From NCBI RefSeq assembly GCF_026130545.1, contig NZ_JAMOIM010000003.1, positions 1 through 64,000 of the forward strand: a stretch of 64,000 nucleotides of DNA, written 5' to 3'. Position numbers and translations under genes: made by a program. This DNA comes from Lichenifustis flavocetrariae. GTDB lineage: Bacteria; Pseudomonadota; Alphaproteobacteria; Rhizobiales; Beijerinckiaceae. Below are positions 8,035 through 26,872 of the stretch, in pieces (position 1 is the stretch's first letter; every line of letters begins with the position of its first letter). The notes beneath the pieces were generated by a model. That model worked only from the letters and a program-made list of their open reading frames with translations. It was not told where the DNA came from and did not search any database.

Positions 8035-8688
8035 ATGCGCGAAGCCTTGATTGTCTGGGGCGGGTGGAGCGGCCACGAGCCCGAACAGGGGGCGAAAATT
8101 GTCGCCGCCATGCTCGAGGAGGAAGGGTTCAAGACCTATGTCGAGGCCACTACCGAGGCCTTTGCCGATCCCGCGATCGCGGACATGAGTCTGATCGTGC
8201 CGATCTACACCATGTCCAAGATCGAGAAGGAGGAGCTCGACAACCTCAACCGTGCCGTGCAGGGCGGCGTGGGCCTGGCCGGATACCACGGTGGCATGGG
8301 TGACGCCTTCCGCGACGCCGTCGAGTACCAGTTCATGGTGGGCGGCCAATGGGTGGCGCACCCGGGCAACATCATCGACTACACGGTCGAGGTCACCCGG
8401 CCCGACGACCCGATCATGGCCGGGATCCCGGCGAGCTTCCCATACCGCTCCGAGCAATATTACATGCACGTCGACCCTTCGAACGAAGTGCTGGCCACGA
8501 CGCGCTTCACGGGCGAGCACGCCTCCTGGATCGATGGCGTGGTCATGCCCGTGGTGTGGAAGCGGCGGCACGGCCTCGGAAGGGTGTTCTATTCCTCGCT
8601 CGGCCACGTGGCGTCGGAGTTCGACGTGCCCGAGATGCGCACGATCCTCAAGCGCGGCCTGCTCTGGGCGGCGCGTCCCGCTGCGTGA
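8035..8688 (+). CDS. ThuA family protein
   Basis: This 217-residue cytoplasmic protein of the ThuA/trehalose-utilisation family has a glutamine-amidotransferase-like fold. Recognisable blocks are WGGWSGHEPEQGA at the N-terminus, GGVGLAGYHGGMGDAF in the middle, SEQYYMHVDPSNEVLATT, and GRVFYSSLGHV near the C-terminus, with its conserved histidine. GGGAGGATCAC precedes the ATG. It forms a two-gene unit with the upstream Gfo/Idh/MocA gene. Its last 41 bases overlap the last bases of the convergent ATPase gene. The function is inferred as partner of the oxidoreductase in keto-sugar metabolism. Confidence 0.88.
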   Translation: MREALIVWGGWSGHEPEQGAKIVAAMLEEEGFKTYVEATTEAFADPAIADMSLIVPIYTMSKIEKEELDNLNRAVQGGVGLAGYHGGMGDAFRDAVEYQFMVGGQWVAHPGNIIDYTVEVTRPDDPIMAGIPASFPYRSEQYYMHVDPSNEVLATTRFTGEHASWIDGVVMPVVWKRRHGLGRVFYSSLGHVASEFDVPEMRTILKRGLLWAARPAA

Positions 8689-9751: not shown

Positions 9752-9759
9752 GGCGGGAC

Positions 9760-10572: not shown

Positions 10573-10581
10573 GCCCGCCCC

Positions 10582-11562
10582 TCAGCCTATTTGCTCGTGC
10601 CGCGTCGAGCGGACGTAGAGGGTCGCGACGCCGATCACGACCGCGATCATCAGCACCGCGATCGTGCTGCCGCCGGCGATGTCGTAGGTCTGGAACGACA
10701 ATTGCCAGGACCAGAACTGGGCCACGTTGGAGCTGTTCGAGGGGCCACCCTGCGTCATGCCGGCAAAGAGGTCGAACTGCTGTAGGGTGAAGATGACCGA
10801 CAGGGACACGAGCGCCCCGAGGGTCGCGCGCATCATCGGTAGCGTGATGGAGCGGAAACGCTCGACCGGCCCGGCCCCGTCGAGTTGCGCCGCTTCATAA
10901 AGATCCTTCGGAATGGCCGCGAGACCGACCGACAGGAGAAGCATGTTGAAGGGAATGCCGAGCCAGATGTTGGCGATCGTCACGGCATAGAGCGAGGTCG
11001 CCGGGTCCGACATCCAGAAGATCTTGGTCGGGTGCAGGTGCGTGACGGCGAGCAGGGAATTGACCACGCCGTTGTCGCCCGCGAGCATCCAGCGCCAGAT
11101 CCCGCCCACCACGAGGCCGGGCATGATCCACGCGGCGAGGAAAAGGCCGCGCATGATGCCCGCACCTGGAAAGTCCTGCTGGAAGAAAAGGGCGAGCGCG
11201 AAGCCGAGAACGAGTTGGCACGCGACCGACAGCGCCACGAAAACCAGAGTATGGCGCGCCACCATGCCGGCCTCGGGGCGGGTGAGGACGTCGACGTAGT
11301 TGGCGAAGCCGACGAAGGGCCGGCTGAAGTCGCCGAGCGTGAACATGTCGACCTGCTGAAGCGACATCAACACGGTGTAGAGGATCGGCGCGAGGCCGAA
11401 GACGATCAGATAGACGAGCGTGAGCAGAACCAGCAGGGCGTCGAGGCCACGCCCGTCGCGGAATGTATCGAACACGGACAGGCGCATCGTTGATGCGGTG
11501 GGGTCTGGCAGGGCAGATACCGCAATGCGCCCCGGTCTGCTCGTCTGGCCGCTGATCTTCAT
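10582..11562 (-). CDS. Carbohydrate ABC transporter permease (MalF type)
   Basis: This 326-residue inner-membrane permease has a cytoplasmic N-terminal extension of about 40 residues, six helices and the EAA loop (LYEAAQLDGAGPVERFRSITLPMM). The ATG at 11562 is preceded by GCGAGGTGGC. A second ATG at 11487 would remove most of the extension but lacks a ribosome site. It lies 48 bp downstream of the binding-protein gene. It is the second importer of the island and differs clearly in sequence from the first, so the two are not a recent duplication. Confidence 0.92.
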   Translation of the reverse strand: MKISGQTSRPGRIAVSALPDPTASTMRLSVFDTFRDGRGLDALLVLLTLVYLIVFGLAPILYTVLMSLQQVDMFTLGDFSRPFVGFANYVDVLTRPEAGMVARHTLVFVALSVACQLVLGFALALFFQQDFPGAGIMRGLFLAAWIMPGLVVGGIWRWMLAGDNGVVNSLLAVTHLHPTKIFWMSDPATSLYAVTIANIWLGIPFNMLLLSVGLAAIPKDLYEAAQLDGAGPVERFRSITLPMMRATLGALVSLSVIFTLQQFDLFAGMTQGGPSNSSNVAQFWSWQLSFQTYDIAGGSTIAVLMIAVVIGVATLYVRSTRHEQIG

Positions 11563-11610
11563 GCCACCTCGCAGTATAGGTTCACCCGAGACCTGGACGG
11601 CTGGAGGGGC

Positions 11611-12822
11611 CTATTTCTTGAGGACCCGGTCGATCTGAGCCTGTGCGGTGTCGAGCGCCGTCTTGGCGTCGGTCTGATGCGTGAGGGCAGCCTGAACAGC
11701 GGTCTGGATGGGCTTCGAGATCTTCACCCAGTCGGGGCTCGGGCCACGCACCTTCGCGTCTTCCAAAGCCGTGGCGAAGACCTTGTAGGCCGCCGGCCAT
11801 TTCGGATCGGGCACATCGACCTTGGAGGCCGGCAGGAACCCGAAGTCGTTCCACACGGTGGGCATCCGGGCATTCATGAAGGAGATCATCGCGAAGGCCT
11901 CCTTCGGATGCTTGGCCTTCGTCGGGATGACGTTGGTGCCCTCGCCGAGAGCCGAGGCACGCGGGCCGCCGGCCGTCTTGACGGGCAGCAACGCGACACG
12001 CCAATCGAACTTGGCGTCGCGGCTCATGCGCGGCAGTTCCCACGGGCCGGAGACGACCATGGCGGCGTTGCCGGCATTGAACGTGCCGGTCGAATCATAC
12101 TGCCCGCGCACGAGAGTGTCGGGCGAGGCGACCTTCTCGTCGATCAGCTTCTGCCAAAACTGCAGAGCCTCGACGGCGCCCGGCGTGTTGATGTGGTCGT
12201 AATTGCCGCCCGCCATCTGCACCCAGGGCAGGAACTGGAACGTGCCCTCCTCGGAATTCGCGGCCGAGAAAGCCAAGCCGTAGACGTTCTTGGCCGGGTC
12301 GGTGAGCGTCTTGGCGGCGGCGTAGAATTCGTCCCAAGTTTGGGGCGGGTGGTCGGGGTCGAGCCCGTGGGCCTTGAACATGTCGGCGTTGTAAAAGAGC
12401 GCCAGCGTATTGGCGCCGCGCGGCACTGCATAGACCTTGCCGTTCACCGACGCGGCGCCGCGCGGGCCGGGGTAGAAGCTCTCCATGTCGATCGTCTTGT
12501 CGGCCGCGATCATGCCGGTGAGGTCACTCAGCGCCCCCCGGGAGGCGAGCAGCGCCACGTCCGGATTGTCCACGTAGCTGATATCCGGGACGTTGCCGGT
12601 CATGGCCGCGCGGGCGAGATCGTTCACCATGTCGGGAAACTGCACGCGGCGGACATTCACCTTGATGTCCGGGTGCGCCGCCTCATAGGCCTTCGCCATG
12701 CCGTAGGCATATTGCCCGTCCTGGTCGACCGACCAGAAGTCGAGCGTGAGCGGCTCCGCCCGCAAGCTCGATCCACAGACCCCCAATAAGGCCACAGCGG
12801 CCAACGCCGTCGTTTTCATCAT
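11611..12822 (-). CDS. Extracellular sugar-binding protein of ABC transporter (family 1)
   Basis: This 403-residue periplasmic binding protein has a signal peptide of about 22 residues (cleavage after SSLRA, before EPLTLDF). The mature protein shows family-1 features, such as KAYEAAHPDIKVNVRR near the N-terminus and the central TWDEFYAAAKTLTDP block. Two adjacent ATGs (12822 and 12819) follow GGGAGGAGAACC, and I took the first. It supplies substrate to the permeases at 9760-11562. The operon order from here is binding protein, permease, permease, ATPase. Confidence 0.93.
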   Translation of the reverse strand: MMKTTALAAVALLGVCGSSLRAEPLTLDFWSVDQDGQYAYGMAKAYEAAHPDIKVNVRRVQFPDMVNDLARAAMTGNVPDISYVDNPDVALLASRGALSDLTGMIAADKTIDMESFYPGPRGAASVNGKVYAVPRGANTLALFYNADMFKAHGLDPDHPPQTWDEFYAAAKTLTDPAKNVYGLAFSAANSEEGTFQFLPWVQMAGGNYDHINTPGAVEALQFWQKLIDEKVASPDTLVRGQYDSTGTFNAGNAAMVVSGPWELPRMSRDAKFDWRVALLPVKTAGGPRASALGEGTNVIPTKAKHPKEAFAMISFMNARMPTVWNDFGFLPASKVDVPDPKWPAAYKVFATALEDAKVRGPSPDWVKISKPIQTAVQAALTHQTDAKTALDTAQAQIDRVLKK

Positions 12823-12877
12823 GGTTCTCCTCCCTATAGTGTCGTCCGGCCCTCTGACGGGGCCGTGGCGGTTCGGT

Positions 12878-13795
12878 TCAGGCGGGGTTCGGCACGAAGC
12901 TGCCACCACGGCTGAGCTTGAGATGGTTGAGGGCCGCGACCTGCCCGGTCATCTCCAGGGCGTCACGATAAACCGGATCGTGCCAGCCTTCGATATCGAT
13001 CGAGCCGCGATAGCCTCCGAGGCGCAATTCGGAAATCACATCCGTCCAATTGGTGTCGCCGAAGCCGGGCGTGCGCATGAACACGAACGGCACCTTGCCG
13101 AACACTCCGTGGCGGCGGATCACGTCCCACCGGACGGTCGCGTCCTTGCCGTGCACGTGGAAGATTTTCGTGGCCCATTCGCGGATCTGCGGCACGGGGT
13201 CGATGAGATAGACGAGCTGGTGGCAAGGCTCCCATTCGAGGCCGAGGTTGTCGTCCGGCAGCGAGTCGAACATCAGCCTCCAGGCGTCCGGATTATGCGC
13301 GATGTTCCAGTCGCCAGCGGCCCAGTTGCCATCCATGGCGCAATTCTCGAAGGCAATGCGCAAGCCGCGGTCGGCGGCGCGCCTGGCGAGATCGCCCCAG
13401 ACTTCCCTGTAACGCGGGAGGCTGTCCTCGATGGGCTTGCCGCGCACCCGACCCGTGAAGCCACAGATGGTTTTGGCGCCGAACAGATGGGCATTGTCGA
13501 TCAGCGCCTTCCAGCCTTCGAGGGTCTGACGGTCGAGATCCCGGTCCTCCAGCGGGTTGCCGAACATGCCGAGCGTCGGGATCGTCACGTCGCGGTCGCC
13601 GATCGCATCCTTCAGGCCGTCGGCCAGGCGCGTGAGGTCGGTCCCGCCGGTCGTCTGCCAGAAGAAGGGTTGCAGGCTCTCGAAGCCGTGCGGCAGGATC
13701 TGCCGCACGTAGCCCGCGGGGTCGGGTGCGTTGCACTTGATCATTGTGCCGATGCGGAAAGCCCTGGTATCGGCCGGTGCGGATGCGTCGCTCAC
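12878..13795 (-). CDS. Sugar isomerase/epimerase-like TIM-barrel protein
   Basis: This 305-residue protein is of the AP-endonuclease-2/xylose-isomerase-like superfamily. Ligand-bearing segments are visible: FENCAMDG, LGLEWEPCHQLV, HVHGKDATV and SIDIEGWHDP, giving the usual Glu, His and Asp set for a divalent metal. It starts with GTG, and its first four bases overlap the stop of the upstream oxidoreductase gene, so translation is coupled. It is only distantly related to the isomerase at 1339-2391. With its oxidoreductase partner it probably processes the sugar delivered by the adjacent importer. Confidence 0.83.
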   Translation of the reverse strand: MSDASAPADTRAFRIGTMIKCNAPDPAGYVRQILPHGFESLQPFFWQTTGGTDLTRLADGLKDAIGDRDVTIPTLGMFGNPLEDRDLDRQTLEGWKALIDNAHLFGAKTICGFTGRVRGKPIEDSLPRYREVWGDLARRAADRGLRIAFENCAMDGNWAAGDWNIAHNPDAWRLMFDSLPDDNLGLEWEPCHQLVYLIDPVPQIREWATKIFHVHGKDATVRWDVIRRHGVFGKVPFVFMRTPGFGDTNWTDVISELRLGGYRGSIDIEGWHDPVYRDALEMTGQVAALNHLKLSRGGSFVPNPA

Positions 13796-14826
13796 GCGGA
13801 AAGCTCCATGACGTCGTTATAGGTGACCCGATGCCCCGTTTCGGCGCTCCGGATCGCGCCCAGCACCATGGCCAGGCTGCGGATGTTGTCAGTGCCCGGA
13901 CATTCCGGGGTACGGCCGCCGCGAAGTGCATCGAGGAAATCACGAATGACACCCTCGTGGCCGCCGATGCGGTCGCCGGGATCAAGTGGTGGGATCTCGA
14001 TCGAGGTCTCCTCCGAAAGCAATCCGGTGCGCCCGATTGGCCGTTCCGCCGCAAACCCGTCGGCGCCATCCCAGGTGAGCGTGCCGTTCTCGCCGACCAG
14101 GCGCCACACGCTTTCCCAGCTCGTGCGCAATCCTTCGGCCGCCCAGCTGCCCCGATAGGTCAGCACCACGCCACCCGACATCTCGAAGATTGCATTGGCG
14201 GCGGCGCCGGTGCGGTACCACGAGCCTTTGGGGTTGGTCTCATGGCAGTAGACCGCCTTGGGCACTGCGCCCGAGACATAGCGGGCCGCGTCGAAAGTGT
14301 GGATCGCCATGTCGAGCAGCAACACGTGATCCATGTCTTCGCGGAAGCCACCGAAATGCGGTCCAATGAAGAAGTCGCAGTGAACGGCCGTCAGCGCCCC
14401 GATGGCACCGCTCTCGACAAAGCGCCGCAAGCGGCGGATGCCTGCCAGGAAGCGGCGGTTCTGCACTACCGCATGCACGCGTCCCTTGGCGGCGGCGAGA
14501 TCGATGAAGTGGCGCGCGTCGGCGAGGCTCGTCGCCATGGGCTTCTCGGTCAGCACGTGGCAGCCGTGCCCTATAGCCGTCTCGACAACCCCATGCCGCG
14601 CCGCCGGGACCGTCACGTCGAAGACGATGTCCGGATGCGTCGCTTCGAGCACGGCGGCGAGGTCCGTGCCGCAGAGGACATCCGCCAGCTCGAATGCCGC
14701 GGCCTGCCGCTTCGCGGCCGCCAGATCGAGATCGACCAGTGCCACAATCTCGAGGTCGTCGATTTTGGCGCATGCGTCGAGCCAACCACGGCTCATCTGC
14801 CCGCAGCCGACTAGGGCCACTTTCAT
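13792..14826 (-). CDS. Gfo/Idh/MocA family oxidoreductase
   Basis: This 344-residue dehydrogenase has VGCGQMSRGW as its nucleotide-binding motif at residues 6-15, TEKPMAT as the catalytic lysine motif, and a C-terminal substrate domain. The ATG follows GGGAGGCGCCGATC. It is the first gene of the leftward six-gene operon, divergent from the LacI regulator and 48 bp from the palindromic operator. It is the third Gfo/Idh/MocA enzyme of the sugar island. Substrate unknown. Confidence 0.9.
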   Translation of the reverse strand: MKVALVGCGQMSRGWLDACAKIDDLEIVALVDLDLAAAKRQAAAFELADVLCGTDLAAVLEATHPDIVFDVTVPAARHGVVETAIGHGCHVLTEKPMATSLADARHFIDLAAAKGRVHAVVQNRRFLAGIRRLRRFVESGAIGALTAVHCDFFIGPHFGGFREDMDHVLLLDMAIHTFDAARYVSGAVPKAVYCHETNPKGSWYRTGAAANAIFEMSGGVVLTYRGSWAAEGLRTSWESVWRLVGENGTLTWDGADGFAAERPIGRTGLLSEETSIEIPPLDPGDRIGGHEGVIRDFLDALRGGRTPECPGTDNIRSLAMVLGAIRSAETGHRVTYNDVMELSA

Positions 14827-14873
14827 GATCGGCGCCTCCCGTTTCGCCAGCTTTTGCCGGTCTCACTTGCGTC

Positions 14874-14887
14874 CGTAAACGTTTACG
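14874..14887. promoter_or_regulatory. Perfect palindromic LacI-family operator
   Basis: The sequence CGTAAACGTTTACG is a perfect 14-bp palindrome with a central CG, the classic form of LacI/GalR-family operators. It lies in the 112-bp gap between the oxidoreductase operon (start 14826) and the LacI-type gene (start 14939). It is therefore placed to repress both the catabolic operon and the regulator itself. I saw no second copy elsewhere in the window. Confidence 0.8.
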
Positions 14888-14938
14888 ATGGTGGACGGCC
14901 CGTGTGAAGCTGTCAAGAACCCCGGGGGAGGAAAGTTC

Positions 14939-15976
14939 GTGACGGCGAATCGGACGATCGGCATTCGGAGATTGGCGGCCGAACTGGGGATCTCAATCGG
15001 CACCGTCTCGCGCGCCCTGAACGACCGCACCGATGTGAACTCCCAGACGCGGGCGCGTGTGCGCGAAGCCGCCGAACGGCTCGGCTACGTGGCCAACCAT
15101 TCGGGCCGCAGCCTCCGGCAGGGGTCGACCGGCACGGTGGGGGTGCTGTGGCGCGTGTCGGAGAGCCTGGAAACCCATGGTGATCCGTTCTCGGTTGCCC
15201 TGTTCGACGGCATGCAGACGGAACTGGCCGCGCAGGGACGCGACCTTGTGCTGCTGATGACCCAACCTCATGAACAGCTCGACCGAGTGCGCCGCGTCGT
15301 CGAACGCCGCATGGTGGACGCGCTGATCCTGCCGTGGACGGAAATCGACGATCCTCGCCTCGATCACGTCGCGGCCCAGCGGTTTCCATTCGTGGCTCTC
15401 GGTCGCAGCCGTTCTGGCGGTGACCATGCCTGGATCGACTTGGACTTCGAGACCGCCGGGCGCACGACGATCGAGCGCCTGGCCGGCCTCGGGCATCGCC
15501 ACATCGGCCTCATGGCGTCCAGCCGCGAGCTGATGCAGGGCGCGGTGCTGACCGAAGCCTGCCAGGCGGCTCTCGCTGCACTCGGCCTGCCCCCCGCGGC
15601 GGTTGTGCCCGACAGTCTGACCGAAGCGGGCGGCTATCTCGCGAGCGCTGCTTTGATGGAACGCCATCCCCGGCCTACCGCGCTCATCGCCAACAGTGAG
15701 CGGATGGCCGTGGGGGCCTACAGACTTGCGGCGGAGCGCGGTTTCGTCGTCGGCCAGGATGTCGCCGTGATTGCCATCGCGTCCGACAATGCCCTGTGCC
15801 GCTACCTCAGTCCCTCACTGACCTGCTTCGACCCGGCCCCCTTCTCGCTCGGGCGTCGACTCGCTGAGGTCGCCCTGGACCAGCTCGTCGCACCGCTCAC
15901 CCGGAAAACAGAGCAGCTCTGGCCCATGCGGCTCATCGAACGGGAAAGCGATGGCGCGGCACGACCCAATGTGTGA
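14939..15976 (+). CDS. LacI family transcriptional regulator
   Basis: This 345-residue repressor has a LacI helix-turn-helix with hinge (residues about 7-60; LAAELGISIGTVSRALND...VREAAERLGYVAN). The C-terminal part is a periplasmic-binding-like sugar-sensing domain. The GTG at 14939 has an excellent ribosome site (GGGGGAGGAAAGTTC). An in-frame ATG at 14888 abuts the operator and lacks one. It is divergent from the six-gene oxidoreductase/isomerase/importer operon and is probably its regulator, responding to a sugar or its oxidised product. Confidence 0.93.
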   Translation: MTANRTIGIRRLAAELGISIGTVSRALNDRTDVNSQTRARVREAAERLGYVANHSGRSLRQGSTGTVGVLWRVSESLETHGDPFSVALFDGMQTELAAQGRDLVLLMTQPHEQLDRVRRVVERRMVDALILPWTEIDDPRLDHVAAQRFPFVALGRSRSGGDHAWIDLDFETAGRTTIERLAGLGHRHIGLMASSRELMQGAVLTEACQAALAALGLPPAAVVPDSLTEAGGYLASAALMERHPRPTALIANSERMAVGAYRLAAERGFVVGQDVAVIAIASDNALCRYLSPSLTCFDPAPFSLGRRLAEVALDQLVAPLTRKTEQLWPMRLIERESDGAARPNV

Positions 15977-16347: not shown

Positions 16348-18609
16348 TCAAGGATTGGGCGCGATGCCGAACAGGACGACTTGCCGGCGGATCTCGGCCG
16401 CAAGGGCCGGGTCACCGACGCGCCCTTCGGGCGATGGTGTCAGGGAGAGCAGTCCGTTCGGACAAGGGCGGTCGTCGTCCCAGCCAGGATGGTCAGCAAT
16501 CGGGTAAAGGCACAATCCCTCGACCGGCACGCCCGCGTGTCGAGCGGCGCGGACTTCCACCCCCATGCCGGAGAGCCAGGACGCCCGGAGGTCGCCTTCG
16601 ATCCCGGTTTCCGCCACGAAGATCGGCCGTCCATAGCGGGCGTAGGTCTCAGCCAGCATGTTGCGAAACGGCTTGTAGTCGCGGTGATCCGCCGCGATGG
16701 GGCCGGTTCCGTGGATCCACTGGTTGTTGAAGTAATAGTTCACGCCGACGATATCGAGATGGCGGGGCGTGCCGCCGAGCTGAGGCCATGCGTGACCCGC
16801 GATCATGTCCCAGCCCTGGTATTGCGCCTGGTGGTGGCCCGCCGCATGGGGGCGCTCGTGCGACCTCTCGGGGTGGACGATCACGTTGATCACGGGATCG
16901 GCGTGGACGAAACGGGCGCGCGGCTCGACATTCCAGATCGCGTCCATCGCGGCGATCGCCGTGCGGGCGAGTTGCACCTTGAGCTCATGGCCGCGTCCGC
17001 GAGCGAACGGGTTGAGATAAGCGGCATCGCCCCCGCCCCATGCGAAGAACGAAATTTCGTTGACCGGAGCATAGAACGGCACCCCACCCGTTTCCTCGCG
17101 CACCACCCGGGCGGCGGCGGCGGCAAAACGAGCGAAGCGATCGACGAAAGCGGGCCGCCAGATATCGATGTCGTCCGGCCAGCCGTAATGCAAGAGGTCC
17201 CAGATCACCTGGGTCCCAGTCTCCCGTGCCGCGCGCAGCATCGGCAGAAAGCTCGACCAGTCGTAGCGCCCCGGCGCTGTCTCGATGCGGTGCCAGCGCA
17301 GACCGTCGCGGACCGTCAGGATGCCATGCTGGGCGAGGGTTCGGTAATCGGCGGCGGCATGCGTGTCGTGAGCGATCGAGGCGATCACGTCCAACCGTCG
17401 CCCGTCATGCCGCCTGTGGGTGGAGGATTCGAAGCCGCCCTGCATGAAGGAGCGGAACAGGGTCGGCGGCGGTGCCGGAACGCGCTCCTCGAGCACCGCG
17501 GCAAAAAGAGCCGTCCATTGCGACACCACGGCGTCGACCGCGTAGTCGGCTTCAACTTTTGCCCGGAGCGCGCCGCCCAATCGTTGCCGCAAGGAAGGCT
17601 CATCGAGAAGGTGAAGCATAGCCTTGGCCACGGCCTCGGGGGCCTCATGCGGGACGAACAGTCCCGAAACGCCGTCGGTGATCTGCTCCAGCGCGCCGTT
17701 GTCCGGCGTCGCGATCACTGCGAGCCCGGCAGCACCGGCCTCCGCGATCACGTGCGGCATGCCTTCGTGGCGTGACAACCAGGCCAGCATGTCGAGCCCG
17801 GCCAGCAGCATCGGCACGTCTGGACGATCCCCCATAAAGCGAAGGCGGCCGTCGAGACCCAGAAGCGTTGCCTGGCGCCTCAGGGTGTCGGCATAGTCGG
17901 GCATGAAGGCATCGGGACCGCCGATGATCACAAATCGCGCGTCGGGCCGGTCCCGCGCCACCAAAGCGGCGGCGGCCAGGAAATCCTCAACGCGCTTCTT
18001 GCGATCGAGGCGCCCGACCCAGCCGATGACCGGTACCTCGGGACCGACGTTGAACTCGGCCCGCGCAAGGGCCCGGTCGCCTGGTCGGAAGGCCTTGAGG
18101 TCCACCATGGAAGGGATGACGAGCGCCTGCGTCTCGCGCCCCGGCATGCGGCCGGCTGCGGCGTCGCGGATCGAACGGCACACGCCGACATAGCGGGCCG
18201 TGAAATGTTTAGGCCCGGCCAAAGCCTCCTCGACGAGACCGCCATGCTCGATCAGCGGCGGCCGAAGGTGCAAGCGCTCGAGCGCCGGATAGACATCGGC
18301 GACGTTCTGCGAGGAGACGACGATGTCATAGGTCGGGATCTTGCACGCAAGATACGCGACCGTATCCTCGAAGGAGAGATGGTAGGGCGTCCTGTCGACA
18401 TCGACGCCAAGCGCCTCCAATTGCCGGTGCGTCTGCTCCGGCATGCCGTCTTTGCGGAAACAGGCGACGACATCGACACGGAACTTGCGACGGTCGAGCG
18501 CCTCCGCCAGGAGCCGGACCTCCGTTTCCTCACCGCCGACCACCAGCCACGCGAACACCCAGAGAATGCGGACCGGCGGCTCCGCTGGCGCAGGCGATTG
18601 TTCTGGCAT
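16348..18609 (-). CDS. Bifunctional GT4 glycosyltransferase / GH1-like glycosidase fusion
   Basis: This 753-residue cytoplasmic protein joins two enzymes. Residues about 12-385 are a GT-B family-4 glycosyltransferase, with WVGRLDRKKR and the EX7E-type motif in HEGMPHVIAEAG. Residues about 404-750 resemble clan-A family-1 glycosidases. The probable acid/base is Glu518 (in APVNEISFF), and the probable nucleophile is Glu667 (in FVAETG), with NYY between them. A short Pro/Ala linker joins the domains. The ATG shares one base with the stop of the upstream dehydrogenase gene (TGATG). It is the last gene of the glycan operon. Which sugar is added or trimmed cannot be read. Confidence 0.85.
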   Translation of the reverse strand: MPEQSPAPAEPPVRILWVFAWLVVGGEETEVRLLAEALDRRKFRVDVVACFRKDGMPEQTHRQLEALGVDVDRTPYHLSFEDTVAYLACKIPTYDIVVSSQNVADVYPALERLHLRPPLIEHGGLVEEALAGPKHFTARYVGVCRSIRDAAAGRMPGRETQALVIPSMVDLKAFRPGDRALARAEFNVGPEVPVIGWVGRLDRKKRVEDFLAAAALVARDRPDARFVIIGGPDAFMPDYADTLRRQATLLGLDGRLRFMGDRPDVPMLLAGLDMLAWLSRHEGMPHVIAEAGAAGLAVIATPDNGALEQITDGVSGLFVPHEAPEAVAKAMLHLLDEPSLRQRLGGALRAKVEADYAVDAVVSQWTALFAAVLEERVPAPPPTLFRSFMQGGFESSTHRRHDGRRLDVIASIAHDTHAAADYRTLAQHGILTVRDGLRWHRIETAPGRYDWSSFLPMLRAARETGTQVIWDLLHYGWPDDIDIWRPAFVDRFARFAAAAARVVREETGGVPFYAPVNEISFFAWGGGDAAYLNPFARGRGHELKVQLARTAIAAMDAIWNVEPRARFVHADPVINVIVHPERSHERPHAAGHHQAQYQGWDMIAGHAWPQLGGTPRHLDIVGVNYYFNNQWIHGTGPIAADHRDYKPFRNMLAETYARYGRPIFVAETGIEGDLRASWLSGMGVEVRAARHAGVPVEGLCLYPIADHPGWDDDRPCPNGLLSLTPSPEGRVGDPALAAEIRRQVVLFGIAPNP

Positions 18610-19709
18610 CAGCCCGCGCTCTTGAACACGATCTGCAGGAAGTCCGGCCGCGTCTCGACCAGAGTCTTGATGAAATCCGGCCCTTCGTCGAACGGCACGA
18701 TGTGGGTGATCACGTGTTTCTTGATGTCGTCGCCGAAGCGCTCAAGCAGCGTGATCGTCTCCAGAGCCAGGCGTCGCCGGCTCCAAGTGAACCCCAGGCC
18801 GCGCGGTACGCGATTGATCTGGGCGCAGCGGAGAGACAGCCCATTGTGATGGAACTCCTCGCCCAAGCGTACCGCATCAGCGCCGCCCTGATAGAAAGCA
18901 AGATCGATCACCACGCCCTGCGGCCGCAGCGCTTTCAGCGCTGTCTGCAGCGCATCGGCATGCGCCCGCGTCTGAAAGACGACATCGGCGCCCCGGTCCC
19001 CGCCGCCGTGATGCCAGCGGGACTTGGCCAGGGACCAGGCCTCCGCCTCGGTTACTGCCTCCAGGCCGAGCCCCGCGGCCACTTGTCGACGGAATGGAGA
19101 CGGATCGGCGATCACCACCTCCGCCGCGCCACAGTTTTTCGCGAACAAGGCCGTCAGAAGTCCCACGACACCGCCCCCGATCACAAGGACCGGCCGCTCC
19201 GCGATGCCCGCACCGAGCCTGGGAACATTGGCGCCGAAGAACTCGGCATCGGCATGCAAAATGCCATTGGCCGCGATCGGTCCCATCTGCGCCACGTAGA
19301 TGCCGAGGATCGGATCGAGACCTGCCGGCAGCGGCACCAGCGTGTCGTGGAACGGATCGGCCGTATGGCCACTTTTGTGCGCGTAAGTCGTCGACACAAC
19401 CTGGCCCGCCTGAAATGCGGGAGTGCGCGATTCGACCACGCGCGCCACCTCCATGTAACCCAGGAACGGCACGGGGAAGTGCTGTCCGGCTTCGCCTGAG
19501 ATGAACACACCGCGTTCGCCATCCCAGCGCGAATGCAAGTAGGGGTTGGTGCCCTTGAAGAAGGTCAGCTCCGTGCCGGCGGAAAAGCCGGTATAGAGCG
19601 TCTCCAGCCGAACCTGTCCCTCGCCGGGCGGCCCCTCGTCATATTCGAAGAAAAAGCCCTGGCCGGGGCGTTCCACGCCAAGCGAGCGGATGCGACGATG
19701 CTCAGACAT
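18609..19709 (-). CDS. Medium-chain dehydrogenase (zinc-binding dehydrogenase family)
   Basis: This 366-residue MDR-superfamily enzyme has the Rossmann motif GGGVVGLLTA in its second half and a GroES-like N-terminal domain. Where zinc alcohol dehydrogenases have the catalytic Cys (CGTD), this protein has GFSAGTE. The four structural-zinc cysteines are also absent, so it may work without zinc. The ATG at 19709 lies 8 bp inside the upstream gene, which couples the two. Its place between two glycosyltransferase fusions suggests oxidation or reduction of a sugar or its nucleotide form. The frame stays open upstream of 19709, but that part is not homologous-looking. Confidence 0.85.
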   Translation of the reverse strand: MSEHRRIRSLGVERPGQGFFFEYDEGPPGEGQVRLETLYTGFSAGTELTFFKGTNPYLHSRWDGERGVFISGEAGQHFPVPFLGYMEVARVVESRTPAFQAGQVVSTTYAHKSGHTADPFHDTLVPLPAGLDPILGIYVAQMGPIAANGILHADAEFFGANVPRLGAGIAERPVLVIGGGVVGLLTALFAKNCGAAEVVIADPSPFRRQVAAGLGLEAVTEAEAWSLAKSRWHHGGGDRGADVVFQTRAHADALQTALKALRPQGVVIDLAFYQGGADAVRLGEEFHHNGLSLRCAQINRVPRGLGFTWSRRRLALETITLLERFGDDIKKHVITHIVPFDEGPDFIKTLVETRPDFLQIVFKSAG

Positions 19710-21822
19710 GGGCGGCCTCTGACGTGACTTCAGTGAGATTGATCGCCTGTCCGGTCTCGGCGGAACGGCGGATGGCATCGGTGATCCACAGGGTCTGCAG
19801 CGCGTCGGCGTAGGAGCATCGAATGCGGTTCTCGCCCCCGCGCACCGCATCGATGAAATCGCGATCCTGACGCCAGACAGGATCACCCTCCGCGCCCCGG
19901 AAAGGCCGACCCCGGCCGATATCGACCATCAGATCGTGGTCGGTGAGTTCCACCGCGAGCCCGTCGGCGAAGATGTGCAGCCCGACGCGATGGTTCCAGC
20001 GCAGCAGGCAGGTCGAGCCGATGTTGCCCACCGCGCCGGATGCGAATTTCAAACTGGCGGTGCTGACGGTCGCGACGTCGAGGCCTGGAAAGTCATCGCG
20101 GCGCTTGTGGGCGGTGAGGCCGAACACCTGCGAAATCGGCCCAACGAGATATTGTGCGAGATCGATGATGTGCGTGGTCTGCTCGTTCATCTGGCCACCC
20201 GACTGGGCCTGTTTCCACCACCAGTGCGGCGGCGGGGTCGAATCGAGCCAGTAACCCGATAGGAACTGGGCAGGATTATCGCCCAAGAGCCCGCGAACTT
20301 CGTCGACCGTATCGAGGTAGCGCCAGTGATAGCCGACGCCCGTGATGAGCCCCGCCTCCTTCACCTCGCGCGCGATCGCCTCGGCGAGAGACGTATCGAG
20401 AGCAACGGGCTTTTCCACGAAGAAGGGCAACTTGTGTGCGAGCGCGGCCCGCTCGGGACGACCGTGGGCAAAAGGCGGCACGCAAATAAAGAGGGCATCG
20501 AGCGCATGGGCATCGAGCATCGCATCGGCCTCGGCATAAGCATGGGCCCCGAAGCGTTCCGCGGCCTCGCCCGCACGCTTGATCGCCGGGTCCGCGAAGG
20601 CGACGATCTCGACATCCTCAAAGGTTTCGAGCACACCCAGGTGCCGGTGCGCGATGCCGCCTGCGCCGATGAAGCCGATGCGGGTGCGAGACCCTGGGCC
20701 GCCAGTCATAGTCTGTCTTCCTTGTTGCCGCAGCGGTCGGGCGAGCATGGCGCCGTAGAGCCGGGAGGTGTCGGCCGCCATCCGGTCGGCCGTGAAGGTG
20801 TCGAGATAGCGCGCCCGTCCCGCCGCGCCCATGGTTCGCGCGAGGATCGGTTGACCGGCGAGCGATGCAATGGCCGCCGCGAGTGCGAGTCCGTCTCCCG
20901 GTGGAACCAGCAAGCCGGTTTCTCCGGGGATCACCACCTCGTCGGTGCCGCCAACGGCCGTCGCCACGATGGGCAGGTGCGCCGCCATGGCCTCGATGGC
21001 CGCGAGCGGGAGCCCTTCGAACCGAGACGGGAGCACGAACACGTCAGCGCCCGATAGCAGGTCGGGCACATCGTCGCGTTGCCCGAGGAAGCTGACGACA
21101 TCGTTGAATCCGAGTGCCGCAACCTGGGCTTGAACCGCGGGTTCGGTCGGGCCGGCGCCGGCAAGCCAAAGGCGCGCTTCGGGCACATGTCGCAACGCGC
21201 TGGCGAATGCGTCGATCAGAGTGGCGTGGTTTTTCTGATCCGTGAAGCGCGCCGTCGTGATGAGGACGCGGTGACTGTCATTGCAGCCCAGGCGACTTCG
21301 CACAGTCGCCCGATCGACCGATGGGTGACGCTCGGGCATGCCATTGTGAACGACGGAGAGGCTTTCGACATCAACACAGGCCGCGGCGAAGCTCGCTCGC
21401 GCCGCGTGGGAGACGCAGATCACACCATCGACAAGCGCCAAGCCCTCCGCGTGGGCGCGACGCTGTTCCGCATCCGTGATGACATCAGGAAGATGCTCTG
21501 TCCTCAAGATCGCCCGGATGCCCGCCGCACGCCCCGCTTCCGCGAGCCCATGTCCCTCCCAGCCGATCCCGGCATGGACGTGCAGCAAGTCGAAGGCGGC
21601 GCCGGCCAGCCAGCGGCGCACGGCATCTCCATCGTCTTCCAACCGTTTGACGCCAAGCCCTAGCCGGGCGGCACGGCCCAGGAGCGCCGATCCGCCTGGG
21701 CTCGCGGGGCACGCCAGGACCAGAGCATAGAAGGGCGACAGAGCCTCGCCGAGCGCCAGCATATGCTCGCCGACGCCGGAGGGCTCCAGACTGTCTGTCG
21801 CAAGGCACACCTTGGGACGCAT
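19702..21822 (-). CDS. GT4 glycosyltransferase / Gfo-Idh-MocA oxidoreductase fusion
   Basis: This protein has 706 residues from the ATG at 21822. Residues 1-370 are a complete GT4 glycosyltransferase, with the donor-site block PSRFEGLPLAAIEAMA and TARFTDQKNH. Residues about 378-706 are a complete Gfo/Idh/MocA enzyme, with GFIGAGGIAHRH and VEKPVAL. The join contains an in-frame ATG at 20709 with AAGGAAG about 8 bases upstream, so the oxidoreductase could also be made alone. The frame is continuous with no stop, so the fusion is real in this sequence unless a frameshift error is hidden. It starts 7 bp after the GT-Glf gene and overlaps the dehydrogenase gene downstream. Confidence 0.85.
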   Translation of the reverse strand: MRPKVCLATDSLEPSGVGEHMLALGEALSPFYALVLACPASPGGSALLGRAARLGLGVKRLEDDGDAVRRWLAGAAFDLLHVHAGIGWEGHGLAEAGRAAGIRAILRTEHLPDVITDAEQRRAHAEGLALVDGVICVSHAARASFAAACVDVESLSVVHNGMPERHPSVDRATVRSRLGCNDSHRVLITTARFTDQKNHATLIDAFASALRHVPEARLWLAGAGPTEPAVQAQVAALGFNDVVSFLGQRDDVPDLLSGADVFVLPSRFEGLPLAAIEAMAAHLPIVATAVGGTDEVVIPGETGLLVPPGDGLALAAAIASLAGQPILARTMGAAGRARYLDTFTADRMAADTSRLYGAMLARPLRQQGRQTMTGGPGSRTRIGFIGAGGIAHRHLGVLETFEDVEIVAFADPAIKRAGEAAERFGAHAYAEADAMLDAHALDALFICVPPFAHGRPERAALAHKLPFFVEKPVALDTSLAEAIAREVKEAGLITGVGYHWRYLDTVDEVRGLLGDNPAQFLSGYWLDSTPPPHWWWKQAQSGGQMNEQTTHIIDLAQYLVGPISQVFGLTAHKRRDDFPGLDVATVSTASLKFASGAVGNIGSTCLLRWNHRVGLHIFADGLAVELTDHDLMVDIGRGRPFRGAEGDPVWRQDRDFIDAVRGGENRIRCSYADALQTLWITDAIRRSAETGQAINLTEVTSEAAHV

Positions 21823-21829
21823 CGTGGCG

Positions 21830-24211
21830 TCAAGCCATCGCTGCCGCGTTCGGTTCGCCGCTGGCGGGCACGTCTGCCGCCTCGACCACGCCGCGCTCGA
21901 CCAGCTTGCGCCAGGTGGCAAGTGCCTGTCCAACCACCTGGTCCATGTTGTAATAGCGATAGGTCGCCAAGCGACCGACGAAGCTCACATCCGGCCGTGC
22001 CAGGGCGAGAGCCTCGTAGCGTTTGTAGAGCGCCTGGTTCTCTGGGCGGGGAATTGGATAATAGGGATCACCCACGTCGCTCGGGATCTCGTAGGTGATG
22101 CTGGTCTTGGGGCCGACCTGCCCGGTGAGGTGCTTGTATTCTGTGATCCGCGTGTGGGGCACGCTCTCGTCAGGATAGTTGATCACCGCCGCCGGCTGAA
22201 AGCGCCGGACCGGATGCGTCTCGTGCCGAAATTCCAAGCTACGGTAAGGCAGCGGGCCATAACGATGCTCGAAATATTCGTCGATCGGCCCCGTGAACAC
22301 GGTGTGGCGCGCGATGCGCTCCCGCATCACATCTCCAAACTCCACGCCGGTTTCGACGGTAATCCGGGGATGATCGAGCATAGCCTCGAACATCCGCGTG
22401 TATCCATCAGCCGGCATCGCCTGGAAACTGTCCGTGAAATAGCGATCGTCGGTGCTGGTGCGCGTGGGAACCCGCTGCGTCACAGCCTTATCGAGCTCCG
22501 ACGGATCGAGGCCCCATTGTTTGCGCGTATAGCCACGAAAGAACATCGCATAGAGTTCGCGCCCCACCTGGGAGATGACCGCGTCCTCAGCAGTTCGAAT
22601 GACCGCCACCGGCTCGGCGCGGGCGGCGAGAAAAGCGGCCGCCTCAGACTCCGAGGTGAGATTCAGGCCGAAGATGGCATTCAGCGTTGTGCGGTTGATG
22701 GGCATCGGAACCGTCATGGCGCCGACGCGCGCGAGCACTCGATGCTCATAGGGCCGCCACCGCGTGAATCGCGACAGATAGTCGACGACGTCTCGGCTGT
22801 TCGTGTGGAAAATATGGGGACCGTAGCGGTGCACCAGGATGCCGGCGGCATCGACCGCGTCATAGGCGTTGCCACCGACATGAGGGCGGCGGTCCACCAC
22901 CAATACGCGACAGCCTGAGCCTGCCGCCAAACGCTCGGCCAGCACGGCACCCGCGAATCCGGCGCCCGCCACAACCACGTCGAATGGTTTGCGACGTCCG
23001 CCAGGGCGTATGAAAGGCGTCTTCAAGACTTGGCCCATGCTTGGCGTTGCCGGTCGGTTGGCCGCCTCTTCGAGGAGATCGCGCATCCGGGCAAAGGTAT
23101 CGTCCCACGATCCAGCCGCCAGGACCGCGTCGGCTTCGGGCCGCCATTTGTTCGGTTCACGTGAGAGGTCAAGCATCTCGGCGCATGCGGCCGTGAAGGC
23201 GGCCGGCGTGCCCGCGATGGCAACACCGGCCAGACGCCCATAATGCCGCTCCACATCGACAATGGGTGTCGAGACCACGGGCCGTCCTGCAGCGAGGTAT
23301 TCGGGCGTCTTGGTCGGACTGATGAAGCGGGTGGCCTCGTTGATCGCGAAGGGCATCAGACACACGTCCCACCCTGCAAGATAGGCGGGCAGCGCGTCGT
23401 ATCCCTTGTTGCCAAGGTAGTGGATATTGTCCCGTCGCGGCAGTTGCGCCGGATCGATTTTCACGACCGGGCCGACGATCACAAGGTGCCAGTCCGGCCG
23501 CGCCGCCGCGACGGCATCCAAGAGAGCGAGGTCCATTCGCTCGTCGACCACACCATAAAAACCCAAGCGCGGACGGGGTATCGCCGCCTGATCGTCCGGC
23601 TCGGCTGTCACCAGTTCCGCCTGGGCGAAATGGGCGACATCGACGCTCGACGGGAAGACATGAATGTTGTCGTGTGCGCCGCGCTTGGCGTCGAATAGGC
23701 TATGTCCGCCTGTGAAGACGAGATCGGCCCGCTGCATCAGCTCGACTTCGAGGTTCTTGAGGGAGGACGGGGCATGCCGAAAGGCGGAGAGTTCGTCCAT
23801 GCAGTCGTACACGACCGACTGTGCCGCGACATGGCGCGCAAAACCGAACATCATCGGGGTGTAGAACCACAGCACCGGAGGGATGCCGCCGCAAGTTGTG
23901 GCGATCAGCATGTCCAGAAGCTCTCTAAGCGCCGTCTCCTTGCGGGCGTCATCCCACCAATGCGGCAGGCGTGGACGCAGCGAAATCACATCCTGTTCGG
24001 GAAACGGGTGGTGCTCAAGGTAGGGACGGCCGTGGTCGCAGGGGATCGCCTCCTCGAACACAAAAACGCGGCGCTTACGGGCGAAGCGCGTCATCAGGTG
24101 CTGTGGGCGTTGGCACACAAAGTCCCACCTCAGGTGGGAGAAGCAGATGATGGTGGAAGTTGAGGGAAGCTCGAAGGCAAAGCTGGCGGCGGGATTTGGC
24201 GTAGCCTTCAA
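21830..24211 (-). CDS. Glycosyltransferase / UDP-galactopyranose mutase fusion
   Basis: This 793-residue protein has two domains. Residues about 15-390 are a GT-B glycosyltransferase of the TuaH-like group (CFSHLRWDFVCQRPQHL near the start, KTPEYLAAGRPVV in the donor domain). Residues 408-780 are UDP-galactopyranose mutase, with the FAD motif GAGFAG at 416-421, VGGNAYD, YGPHIFHT and the C-terminal NMDQVVGQAL. The mutase makes UDP-galactofuranose from UDP-galactopyranose. The start is a TTG at 24211 with AGGAG six bases upstream. Fusing the mutase to a transferase suggests that the product is handed to the fused or a neighbouring transferase. The acceptor is unknown. Confidence 0.9.
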   Translation of the reverse strand: MKATPNPAASFAFELPSTSTIICFSHLRWDFVCQRPQHLMTRFARKRRVFVFEEAIPCDHGRPYLEHHPFPEQDVISLRPRLPHWWDDARKETALRELLDMLIATTCGGIPPVLWFYTPMMFGFARHVAAQSVVYDCMDELSAFRHAPSSLKNLEVELMQRADLVFTGGHSLFDAKRGAHDNIHVFPSSVDVAHFAQAELVTAEPDDQAAIPRPRLGFYGVVDERMDLALLDAVAAARPDWHLVIVGPVVKIDPAQLPRRDNIHYLGNKGYDALPAYLAGWDVCLMPFAINEATRFISPTKTPEYLAAGRPVVSTPIVDVERHYGRLAGVAIAGTPAAFTAACAEMLDLSREPNKWRPEADAVLAAGSWDDTFARMRDLLEEAANRPATPSMGQVLKTPFIRPGGRRKPFDVVVAGAGFAGAVLAERLAAGSGCRVLVVDRRPHVGGNAYDAVDAAGILVHRYGPHIFHTNSRDVVDYLSRFTRWRPYEHRVLARVGAMTVPMPINRTTLNAIFGLNLTSESEAAAFLAARAEPVAVIRTAEDAVISQVGRELYAMFFRGYTRKQWGLDPSELDKAVTQRVPTRTSTDDRYFTDSFQAMPADGYTRMFEAMLDHPRITVETGVEFGDVMRERIARHTVFTGPIDEYFEHRYGPLPYRSLEFRHETHPVRRFQPAAVINYPDESVPHTRITEYKHLTGQVGPKTSITYEIPSDVGDPYYPIPRPENQALYKRYEALALARPDVSFVGRLATYRYYNMDQVVGQALATWRKLVERGVVEAADVPASGEPNAAAMA

Positions 24212-24290
24212 ACTGATCTCCTGATGCCACTATTTGCCATATATGTGGCAGATCACTCTAACGCGCTTATTGGCGGAATGGCTGCATCGA

Positions 24291-25466
24291 TCAGTGATCT
24301 ATGTCGAAGCCGAGCGTGCGACCTTTTGGAGTGTCTGCCATGACAGACATCAAGCGTGCGACACTATGCGGCCATGTCCAGCGGGACAGCACCGTTTCGC
24401 GGGGCGAGAAAGTGGCTGCGTCCTCGACGATCCGGGCGAGGGCTTGAGCAAAAGAGGATTCGTCGGCAGTTCGGCCCGCGGCAGGGAGAATGTACTGGAG
24501 CCCGCAGCGCAACCCGGCATTCGCGAGGACAGGAAGGCCGGCCAGCATGTATTCCGTCAGGATCGCCGGAGCACCATCGTCGACGCCGCACACTACCCCG
24601 ACTTTCGCGAGGTTCATCAGCCGATTGACCTCGGTGAAACCGACGCCGGGCGGCCCGACGAAGTCGACGTCGAGGTTTCGCTCCTCGGCCTGCCGACGGA
24701 GTTCATCGGCCATCTCACCGTAACCGAAGACACAAAGCGCCCGCATCCTGCGCGGCGCTTGCGCCAGGGCGTCGAAGAACAGATCGTGCCGCTTGTAGGG
24801 CTGGGCGGCGGCGACATAGACAGCATCGTAAGGCTTTTCGATCCCAAGCGGCCGAAACGTATCCGGATCTGCGAATTCGGGACCGATCGGCAGAACGGCG
24901 CACGGGACGGCAGGGTGCCGGGCGCGCACCTCGTCGGACTGCCATTCGGACGCCGTCAGCACGAGATCGAACCGGCCCGACACGGCGTCCGGTACCCGCA
25001 ATGCCGGTGCGTCGATCGAGTTGTAGATCTTGAAACTGTCGGCACAGGCATCGAGCAGCGCCTCATCCACACCCAATCCCCACACGCAGAGGATGCGCGG
25101 TGCCCCGAACGCTTTGACGAAGCCACGCATGCTGTTGGAAGAGAATGGCGGATCGGTGCGGCTTATGCGGAAAGCGCGTCGCACGAGACCACAATCGTCG
25201 CGACGGGCCGTCTCAGGGTCGGCCGAAACCAGATGGTGCCACACTTCCGCCCTGTCGACGAGGCCCGCCCGGATGCATGCGAGCGGCAGTCGTTCGAGGT
25301 AGCCGCCACGCACCTCTGGGTGTGCGATCGTGTCGGGCAAGGGCTGCGGCGCTTGCCGCCAGAAATCAGCGGCAGCGTCGACGCTCGGCTCCAGGTCACG
25401 CGCCGGAGGCCAGCCTTCACGAAAATCGCTAATGGCGACGAGCGTCCGTCGAAGCGAAAAGGGCAC
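24291..25466 (-). CDS. Glycosyltransferase, GT-B fold
   Basis: This 391-residue protein has a C-terminal GT4-like donor domain: AAAQPYKRHDLFFDAL, then FVGPPGVGFTEVNRLM, then GAPAILTEYMLAGLPV with the conserved glutamate. The N-terminal half is weakly conserved. It starts with GTG, and GAGG lies five bases upstream. It is the first gene of the glycan operon, 79 bp before the GT-mutase fusion. It is the only stand-alone transferase of the five genes. Donor and acceptor are unknown. Confidence 0.8.
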   Translation of the reverse strand: MPFSLRRTLVAISDFREGWPPARDLEPSVDAAADFWRQAPQPLPDTIAHPEVRGGYLERLPLACIRAGLVDRAEVWHHLVSADPETARRDDCGLVRRAFRISRTDPPFSSNSMRGFVKAFGAPRILCVWGLGVDEALLDACADSFKIYNSIDAPALRVPDAVSGRFDLVLTASEWQSDEVRARHPAVPCAVLPIGPEFADPDTFRPLGIEKPYDAVYVAAAQPYKRHDLFFDALAQAPRRMRALCVFGYGEMADELRRQAEERNLDVDFVGPPGVGFTEVNRLMNLAKVGVVCGVDDGAPAILTEYMLAGLPVLANAGLRCGLQYILPAAGRTADESSFAQALARIVEDAATFSPRETVLSRWTWPHSVARLMSVMADTPKGRTLGFDIDH

Positions 25467-25921: not shown

Positions 25922-26872
25922 TCAGGCCACCTGAGCCAGCGCAGGGCCGAACTGTGCGAGATAGCGCAGGTTCACGGCGGCGAGCGGCATCACCGTGAAC
26001 AGGTCGGTGGTTCCGAATTGGTGATCGACTGCGGCCTCGGTCGCGAACGTGCTTCCCATGCGCACATAGGCTTTGATCAGCGGTGGCAGGCTCGCGAGCG
26101 CTTGGCGTGGGTCGAAACTGCCCTTGTCCAGCCAATCCATCCGCGCCGCGCGGGCCGGTGTGGCCGCAACCTGCCAATCGGCCGGGCATGCGGCGTGGTG
26201 GAAGATGTAGCTCAACGGCATCGCAAGCATCTCGCTGCGGGTGCCTTTGAGGCTTGAACAGCCGATCAACACATCGGAGCCATGGTGAGCCGCGTAGCGG
26301 CCGATGCCTTGCCACAGCAGGTCGATGACCCGCCGCGACCGGAAATCCGGATGAACGCAGGAGCGGCCGATCTCCAGAAAGCGCTTATCGGCATGCCGCT
26401 CGAACAGCGGTTCGAGCAAGAACTCCGATTCACTGTAGAAGCCATCATGGTCGGCCGCCATGTCGCTTCGCAACAGACGGGTGGTGCCGACGACCTGCTC
26501 CTTGTGAAGCGGCCCCGGTCGCGACGTATCCACCACGAAGAGGTGATCGCAGACGCGGTCGAACGGACATGTGTCGCGCCGGAGCGAGGCCTGGTAGGCG
26601 TTGGGGATCGCATCGCCACGCTGGTAGAAAACGTCGTAGCGCAAGCGCTGCACCTTGCGGATCTGCTTCTTGGTTGTTGCGAGGCGGAGTTCGAGCGGTC
26701 CTGACCGGGCAAGCAGTGGAGGCAAGCCTTCGAGGTCACGAACGACCTTGGGGCCTTTGATCCACAGCCCCCGGCCTGGGACGTGAAGCCGCGGAAGATC
26801 AATGCCACTTTGATGCATGTCGGACTCTGCGTGGAGCGGCAACGCAATAGGCGGATTGCACGAAACCGACAT
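25922..26872 (-). CDS. olsB: Ornithine lipid N-acyltransferase OlsB-like (GNAT)
   Basis: This 316-residue protein resembles L-ornithine N(alpha)-acyltransferase, which makes lyso-ornithine lipid from ornithine and 3-hydroxyacyl-ACP. Typical blocks are RLRYDVFY near residue 76, CDHLFVVD, VGTTRLLR, EIGRSCVHPDFR and IGCSSLKGT. An ATG at 26818 would give a shorter form, and neither start has a strong ribosome site. It is divergent from an olsA-like gene 79 bp away, which supports the call. The product remodels the membrane, classically under phosphate limitation. A phosphate transporter lies just beyond. Confidence 0.88.
   Translation of the reverse strand: MSVSCNPPIALPLHAESDMHQSGIDLPRLHVPGRGLWIKGPKVVRDLEGLPPLLARSGPLELRLATTKKQIRKVQRLRYDVFYQRGDAIPNAYQASLRRDTCPFDRVCDHLFVVDTSRPGPLHKEQVVGTTRLLRSDMAADHDGFYSESEFLLEPLFERHADKRFLEIGRSCVHPDFRSRRVIDLLWQGIGRYAAHHGSDVLIGCSSLKGTRSEMLAMPLSYIFHHAACPADWQVAATPARAARMDWLDKGSFDPRQALASLPPLIKAYVRMGSTFATEAAVDHQFGTTDLFTVMPLAAVNLRYLAQFGPALAQVA

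Follow-up and report, generated by a model that had tools for sequence, protein, structure and literature searches.

Background

Fusions of glycosyltransferase (GT) domains to sugar-modifying enzymes might be the defining trait of a glycan pathway, or one of several arrangements of enzymes that cooperate in any case. The question is raised by a five-gene operon of Lichenifustis flavocetrariae, found in a stretch of 64,000 nucleotides that we term the window (GCF_026130545.1, NZ_JAMOIM010000003.1, positions 1-64,000; coordinates count from the start of this stretch). Its genes lie on the minus strand, from 25466 to 16348, in the order GTa, GTb-GLF, GTc-GFO, MDR and GTd-GH, and encode proteins of 391, 793, 706, 366 and 753 amino acids (aa), in which a UDP-galactopyranose mutase (GLF, hereafter Glf), a Gfo/Idh/MocA sugar oxidoreductase (GFO) and a glycosidase-like barrel (GH) each follow a GT domain, with a medium-chain dehydrogenase (MDR) encoded by a gene of its own. 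GTa and GTb-GLF are separated by 79 bp, GTb-GLF and GTc-GFO by 7 bp (the ATG start of GTc-GFO lies at 21822), GTc-GFO overlaps MDR, which starts at 19709, by 8 bp (19702-19709), and MDR overlaps GTd-GH by 1 bp (18609). An earlier note on this DNA had proposed a pathway in which a galactofuranose-containing glycan is built, a sugar oxidized or isomerized and a residue trimmed, each step being tethered to a transfer. The comparisons presented here show that the operon joins two modules, namely module A (GTb, Glf and GH) and module B (GTc, GFO, MDR and GTd), and that it belongs to a real, conserved galactofuranose pathway which, as far as our searches show, is uncharacterized.

Conservation of the operon

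A scan of genome contigs with the MDR sequence recovered 433 relatives, of which the best 80 were kept; close relatives are over-represented among them, and the loci belong mainly to Sphingomonas, Rhizobium, Aureimonas, Agrobacterium and their kin. GTb, GTc, GFO, MDR, GTd and GH are all present in 72 of the 80 loci, with identical order and strand in every one of the 72, while the remaining eight are short contigs or stretches ended by a contig break. The five co-directional genes form a real operon, with the coordinates and order that the earlier note had given. GTa is the least constant component: it lies ahead of GTb in 66 of the 72 loci, behind it in one, and was not found in five, of which two are truncated immediately upstream.

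We rejected frameshift or assembly artefacts as the source of the fusions because the same layout is seen in a congener (L118), complete plasmid records annotate the fused genes, and purifying selection acts on each of the eight domains (dN/dS 0.03-0.32, from up to 10 pairs per domain; 0.04-0.21 for GH). Frameshifts splitting the fusions, which the earlier note had named as a result that would overturn its reading, were accordingly not observed. Its statement that no characterized pathway has this triple-fusion layout agrees with our literature search, which found none, judged mainly by titles and the openings of abstracts.

Fusions are variable states of a conserved gene set

Fusion states were mapped on a quick 94-row tree, which includes short loci and on which long branches were flagged; the counts of changes are minima. 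GTd and GH are fused in all 72 loci. GTc and GFO are fused in 66 and split in six (at least four changes on the tree), and for GFO and MDR the counts are 44 fused and 28 split (at least two changes). Glf is fused to GTb in 57 of the 72 operons, encoded in two frames in one, and absent from 14, with at least six changes in its presence on the 74 labelled rows of the tree.

Three genomes that carry only module B at the core locus, namely G015 and G055, both from the family of the window, and G300, extend this series. There GTc, GFO, MDR and GTd are encoded in separate frames, without GH, and all three genomes encode GTb and Glf elsewhere as separate neighboring genes (52-55% and 64-69% identity, respectively). 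The GTb-Glf pair lies 670 kb from the core on the same contig in G055 and on other contigs in G015 and G300, both core and pair being near contig ends in G015. No relative of the window GH was detected in the three genomes at E 1e-5; in G015 a recognizable GH1 gene starts directly behind Glf (PF00232, 31.6 bits against a cut-off of 22.6).

Each of the pairs GTb/Glf, GTc/GFO, GFO/MDR and GTd/GH is separate or unlinked in some relatives. The fusion as a defining trait was rejected, and an emphasis on tethering is not supported. The earlier note had held that separate domain pairs in close relatives, with no loss of function, would count against it; the structural half of this, the separate occurrence of the pairs, is what we observe. 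The fusions would keep intermediates close but are dispensable, and the triple fusion is one of a series of states and not what defines the pathway.

Two modules and their occurrence apart

The modules differ in reach: module A crosses phyla, often as adjacent genes, while module B is mainly alphaproteobacterial. Among plasmid records at 1e-60, GTb and GH have 128 and 97 matches, compared to 57 each for MDR and GTd. Where module B stands without a linked module A, GTb and Glf are present elsewhere in all three genomes. Conversely, we judged 20 GH records outside the operon (15 from DNA and 5 from coordinates) among the matches listed (60 of 106), and in 17 of them GTb and/or Glf adjoins GH or is part of the same protein. 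In two Skermanella records the genes for GT, Glf and GH are consecutive and accompanied by an ABC exporter (PF00664 and PF00005), and three Azospirillum records have GTb-Glf or glf, GH and an exporter, one standalone GH being 58% identical to that of the window. In Mesorhizobium GH adjoins glf and a GT, the order is GH-GT-glf in Deinococcus actinosclerus and GT-glf-GH in Chryseobacterium, and Comamonas has a GH-GTb fusion followed by glf. In Pantoea, Acinetobacter and Chimaeribacter GH, GTb and an FAD oxidoreductase form a single protein, which in Chimaeribacter is followed by an exporter-like ABC protein; the FAD part of one of these proteins (L173) scores as Amino_oxidase, not as Glf. Counting Azospirillaceae and Chimaeribacter together, six records from two classes have an MsbA-type ABC exporter after module A. 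In Sphingomonas hankookensis, Caballeronia and Gloeothece a GH1-RmlD protein occupies the place of GH beside GTb and Glf.

Dependence on Glf

The window Glf exceeds both curated cut-offs of its family (TIGR00031 and PF03275) over a full domain, and differs from other members in being fused behind a GT4 domain. A separate Glf is encoded in 14 of 14 genomes without an operon Glf, as against 5 of 49 genomes with one (Fisher p 3e-10, relatedness ignored); the 49 derive from 60 loci first tried, less 10 near-duplicates and L075. Glf is thus found in all 63 operon genomes searched, and the genuine Glf and the galactofuranose pathway of the earlier note are supported. In Aureimonas AU20 the operon GTb is annotated at 449 aa. 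The 14 separate Glf proteins, one in each genome and in frames of 386-427 aa, are 38-42% identical to the window Glf, and a single clade of fused Glf was not rejected (AU p 0.72, quick tree), which suggests that in operons lacking Glf the enzyme was probably replaced by a different copy rather than relocated. As controls, in the genus of Agrobacterium Glf is present in 14 of 14 operon genomes versus 13 of 25 without the operon (p 0.0026, again ignoring relatedness), and in a sample of the window's order in 5 of 5 operon genomes, the window included, versus 49 of 392 others (p 4e-5, with the same limit). Galactofuranose appears to be needed by the pathway of this operon.

Domain assignments

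Each of GTa, GTb, GTc and GTd scores above the cut-off of PF00534 or PF13692 and belongs to the GT4-type glycosyltransferases (Table 1). The residue pairs E269 and E277 of GTc and E282 and E290 of GTd are conserved in at least 97% of 75 and 77 sequences, respectively. GTb, which adjoins or is fused with Glf in several phyla, is a probable galactofuranosyltransferase, judging by its sequence and context; its named match, TuaH, is weak (78 bits, cut-off 550).

GFO is a member of the Gfo/Idh/MocA family by its PF01408 score and retains E470-K471-P472, which we take to be the E-K-P motif of that family, in at least 97% of 79 sequences. DgpA and myo-inositol dehydrogenases are among its best PDB matches, and it shares the family fold and the E-K-P motif with DgpA and IolG; unlike these, it has a zinc-less MDR and a GT as partners, in a biosynthetic context. 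It scores 102 bits against an inositol dehydrogenase model, far under the cut-off of 355, and all NCBIfam matches among the best 25 of 46 fall under their cut-offs. MDR has the usual fold of its family, with threonine dehydrogenase as top PDB match. The positions that we presume, from motifs, to hold the catalytic zinc ligands are occupied by Ala44 and Tyr85 in at least 97% of 81 sequences, which sets MDR apart from the zinc-dependent members and makes "zinc-binding dehydrogenase" a misleading name. The name "bi-domain-containing oxidoreductase" led in the literature only to a Streptomyces transcriptome paper, apparently on another subject. Given its pairing with GFO, and its fusion to GFO in the 44 operons mentioned above, MDR, the product of the fourth gene, is probably a partner of GFO and not an independent step.

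The GH domain is the most divergent. In a Pfam scan the window domain matched no GH family over its cut-off; among 31 homologues PF00232 (GH1) was weakly matched by two (best 16.4 bits against 22.6, E 0.0032), and weak matches to GH42 were the most frequent (20 of 31; best E 2.3e-5). Of nine homologues scanned singly, none exceeded the GH1 cut-off and one just reached that of GH42 (21.1 against 21) over 54 residues. An AlphaFold2 model (mean pLDDT 91) has GH1 enzymes as all of its 50 best PDB matches (TMq 0.69-0.79), with identity below 20%, and N517, E518 and E667, conserved in at least 98% of 76 sequences, presumably correspond to the N-E acid/base pair and the nucleophile of GH1 β-glycosidases. 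Fold and the two glutamates thus place it with GH1 while the PF00232 score does not; the model suggests a clan GH-A, GH1-like domain rather than a GH1 member, so that the GH1 label of the earlier note holds for the fold but not for the family. GH1 β-glycosidases act as uptake hydrolases, whereas the window GH is tied to glycosyltransferases. The GH1-RmlD fusions ("family 1 glycosylhydrolase"), with a distantly related GH (23-25% identity in Caballeronia and Sphingomonas; by Pfam only in Gloeothece) beside GTb and Glf, carry an RmlD-type reductase in place of the GT. The catalytic residues of GH are kept, and the trimming of a residue is only one option for its action.

Table 1. Operon domains of the window and selected features of other loci
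Feature	Location	Strand	Match
GTa, GT4-type glycosyltransferase, GTG start	24291..25466	minus	PF00534 46.2 bits, cut-off 26.4
GTb, GT4-type domain at the N-terminus of GTb-GLF	23027..24211	minus	PF13692 45.7 bits, cut-off 27
GLF, UDP-galactopyranose mutase domain	21830..22999	minus	TIGR00031 364.8 (cut-off 303.75), PF03275 253.7 (26.3)
GTc, N-terminal GT4 domain of GTc-GFO	20728..21822	minus	PF13692 129.1 bits
GFO, Gfo/Idh/MocA sugar oxidoreductase domain	19702..20697	minus	PF01408 80.8 bits (cut-off 24)
MDR, zinc-less medium-chain dehydrogenase	18609..19709	minus	PF00107 52.2 bits (cut-off 31.8)
GTd, N-terminal GT4 domain of GTd-GH	17476..18609	minus	PF00534 104.1 bits
GH, predicted clan GH-A, GH1-like barrel domain	16348..17457	minus	AF2 model, PDB matches and conserved residues
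GH-acyl-CoA dehydrogenase fusions	L178:7929-10268 and L186:4411-6783		
GH-GTb-FAD oxidoreductase single proteins, gammaproteobacterial	L173:7840-11550, L176:6876-10604, L189:4492-8283		
Long catalase gene upstream of the operon	L061:3101-5281		PF00199

A putative pathway and its alternatives

We tentatively propose, as a reading whose chance of being right is a little short of even, that the modules are two parts of one cytoplasmic pathway that would build a small lipid-linked or lipid-borne galactofuranose oligosaccharide, not a polysaccharide, with dispensable fusions. Glf is predicted to convert UDP-galactopyranose to UDP-galactofuranose, and GTb would move galactofuranose, through a putative linkage, onto a candidate acceptor. 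The GH1-like domain may edit the product of GTb by hydrolysis or transglycosylation, and GTc and GTd would attach further sugars. GFO and MDR could form a redox pair whose substrate is a single sugar, which they would either oxidize and re-reduce, amounting to epimerization, or leave as a keto or deoxy product. The product may be stress-induced, its export and physiological role being likewise predictions of this scheme. A small product of this kind is suggested by the absence of a polymerase, flippase or initiating phosphoglycosyltransferase from the operon and the flanks scanned, taken together with the MsbA-type exporter after module A, the latter being an analogy drawn solely from module A relatives.

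Several observations weigh against this proposal. Separate Glf genes are common in the Agrobacterium genus anyway, as the 13 of 25 genomes without the operon indicate, and the p-values above all disregard relatedness; given this high background, the case draws its strength from the exchange between fused and separate Glf. Three of the 20 GH records, all from Deinococcus, have neither a GT nor Glf in the stretch, and two of them are acyl-CoA dehydrogenase fusions, which implies another context for GH. In Nonomuraea the GFO-MDR pair (43% and 51% identity) is the only part of the operon present in 19 kb, and it lies in a sugar-uptake cluster that includes a xylose-isomerase-like protein and components of a sugar ABC transporter, although the adjacency of GFO and MDR even there supports a shared sugar substrate. 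In Paracoccus AK26, a stretch of 17 kb contains GTb and GTd-GH (L193:6638-10205) but none of GTc, GFO, MDR and Glf, so that the modules do not separate cleanly. Finally, in the neighbor clusters of 83 loci no exporter recurs beside the alphaproteobacterial operon.

Alternatively, the product might be a galactofuranosyl oligosaccharide or a cyclitol glycoside that stays soluble in the cytosol as a stress protectant, neither lipid-linked nor exported in these hosts; we regard this as possible though rather unlikely. In its favor, the operon has no export gene and no strongly recurrent neighbor; the most frequent cluster (10 of 83 loci), typically about 3 kb away on the opposite strand, looks by eye like an amino-acid-type ABC ATPase. 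Its proteins lack a strongly hydrophobic segment (maximal 19-residue mean 1.85), and the likeness of GFO to inositol dehydrogenase, far under the cut-off as it is, would suit a cyclitol. With one mismatch at most, an EcfG-like motif, for which we assume the consensus GGAAC-N15-18-CGTT, is present in the 300 bp preceding 26 of 73 operons, compared to a shuffle mean of 9.2 (maximum 17 in 100 shuffles), and a catalase gene cluster lies upstream of the operon in eight loci (the member in L061 scores 594 bits with PF00199, the others being grouped by BLAST). On the other side stand the ABC exporters after module A, the absence of the motif at this tolerance upstream of the window operon, and the fact that the 73 upstream regions are not independent. 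The exact EcfG promoter was rejected as a general regulator, being found in 4 of 73 regions within 300 bp and 5 of 73 within 500 bp, and in none for the window. Stress control of the operon is thus a lead. In PMC6599016, EcfG-dependent glycosyltransferase genes of Sphingomonas melonis are described; matching them to the operon failed, and they are not used as evidence. PMC5596212 lists a putative Glf and a neighboring GT of Salmonella in a desiccation screen, which serves as a lead only.

A broader reading, which we consider unlikely, takes GTb, Glf and GH as an undescribed cross-phylum module making an exported galactofuranose glycoconjugate, with the GH1-like domain as a transglycosidase, to which the alphaproteobacterial redox-editing arm (GTc-GFO-MDR-GTd) would have been added later, rewriting one attached sugar and, in some members of this lineage, subject to general-stress control. 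The three genes co-occur in Pseudomonadota, Deinococcota and Bacteroidota, and, if GH1-RmlD is counted, also in Cyanobacteriota.

Similarly doubtful is a branch of cell-surface lipopolysaccharide (LPS) or exopolysaccharide (EPS) synthesis, with polymerase, flippase and export genes elsewhere. Several GTs and the weak TuaH match would fit such a branch, and in most known bacteria Glf serves O-antigen or capsule. Against it, the operon and scanned flanks contain no flippase or polymerase, exporter or initiating transferase of the kind found in Wzx/Wzy or ABC-type polysaccharide operons, and among the Pfam-scanned neighbors of the window operon, the loci with module B only and the unlinked GTb-Glf loci, where many frames gave no match, neither a polysaccharide polymerase nor a flippase or a gene for capsule export was detected. 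The nearest to an export gene, an ABC ATPase encoded next to rpoN in L155, by eye resembles the housekeeping LptB. The occurrence of the operon and module A on plasmids of many genera, in unrelated contexts, also argues against this branch. A catabolic or salvage cluster, in which GH frees a sugar that GFO and MDR oxidize, is very improbable: the Nonomuraea neighborhood and a similar sugar-uptake set just downstream of the window operon speak for it, but that set is not among the neighbor clusters common to at least six loci, and four glycosyltransferase domains and Glf point to synthesis.

Genomic neighborhoods

The sugar-uptake set of the window (8648-15976) comprises sugar ABC transporter parts, a solute-binding protein, a xylose-isomerase-like protein, a second Gfo/Idh/MocA protein and a LacI regulator, and is much like the Nonomuraea GFO-MDR neighborhood. 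Just upstream of the operon (25922-26872) lies an OlsB-like ornithine-lipid acyltransferase gene (NF052555, 292 bits, cut-off 320), which is not among the clusters common to at least six loci. In other genomes, a manganese catalase is encoded near two Mesorhizobium modules, GTb and GTd-GH of Paracoccus AK26 adjoin the Ku and LigD repair genes, and the GH domain fused to acyl-CoA dehydrogenase in Deinococcus radiodurans and D. wulumuqiensis (52% identity) is followed by a PIG-L deacetylase gene.

Phyletic distribution and mobility

The operon is sparsely distributed. It was found in one of five congeners, in 5 of 397 genomes of the window's order and 2 of 398 of its phylum (the window counted in both), and in 14 of 39 genomes of the genus to which an Agrobacterium bohemicum genome belongs. 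MDR matches on plasmids comprise 57 records, of which 56 show 60-80% identity and 39 are typed as conjugative. A cyanobacterial metagenome-assembled genome (Kaiparowitsia, L109) also carries the operon, which groups inside the alphaproteobacterial loci on the tree and is likely to represent contamination.

Implications

Galactofuranose marks specialized bacterial glycans and, to our knowledge, is not found in mammals; the operon offers a concrete target in the search for a new class of glycans. It represents a movable, conserved pathway of rhizobia, sphingomonads and other plant- and surface-associated bacteria, and its core extends to other phyla. The series from unlinked genes through an operon to fusions shows which of these enzymes cooperate.

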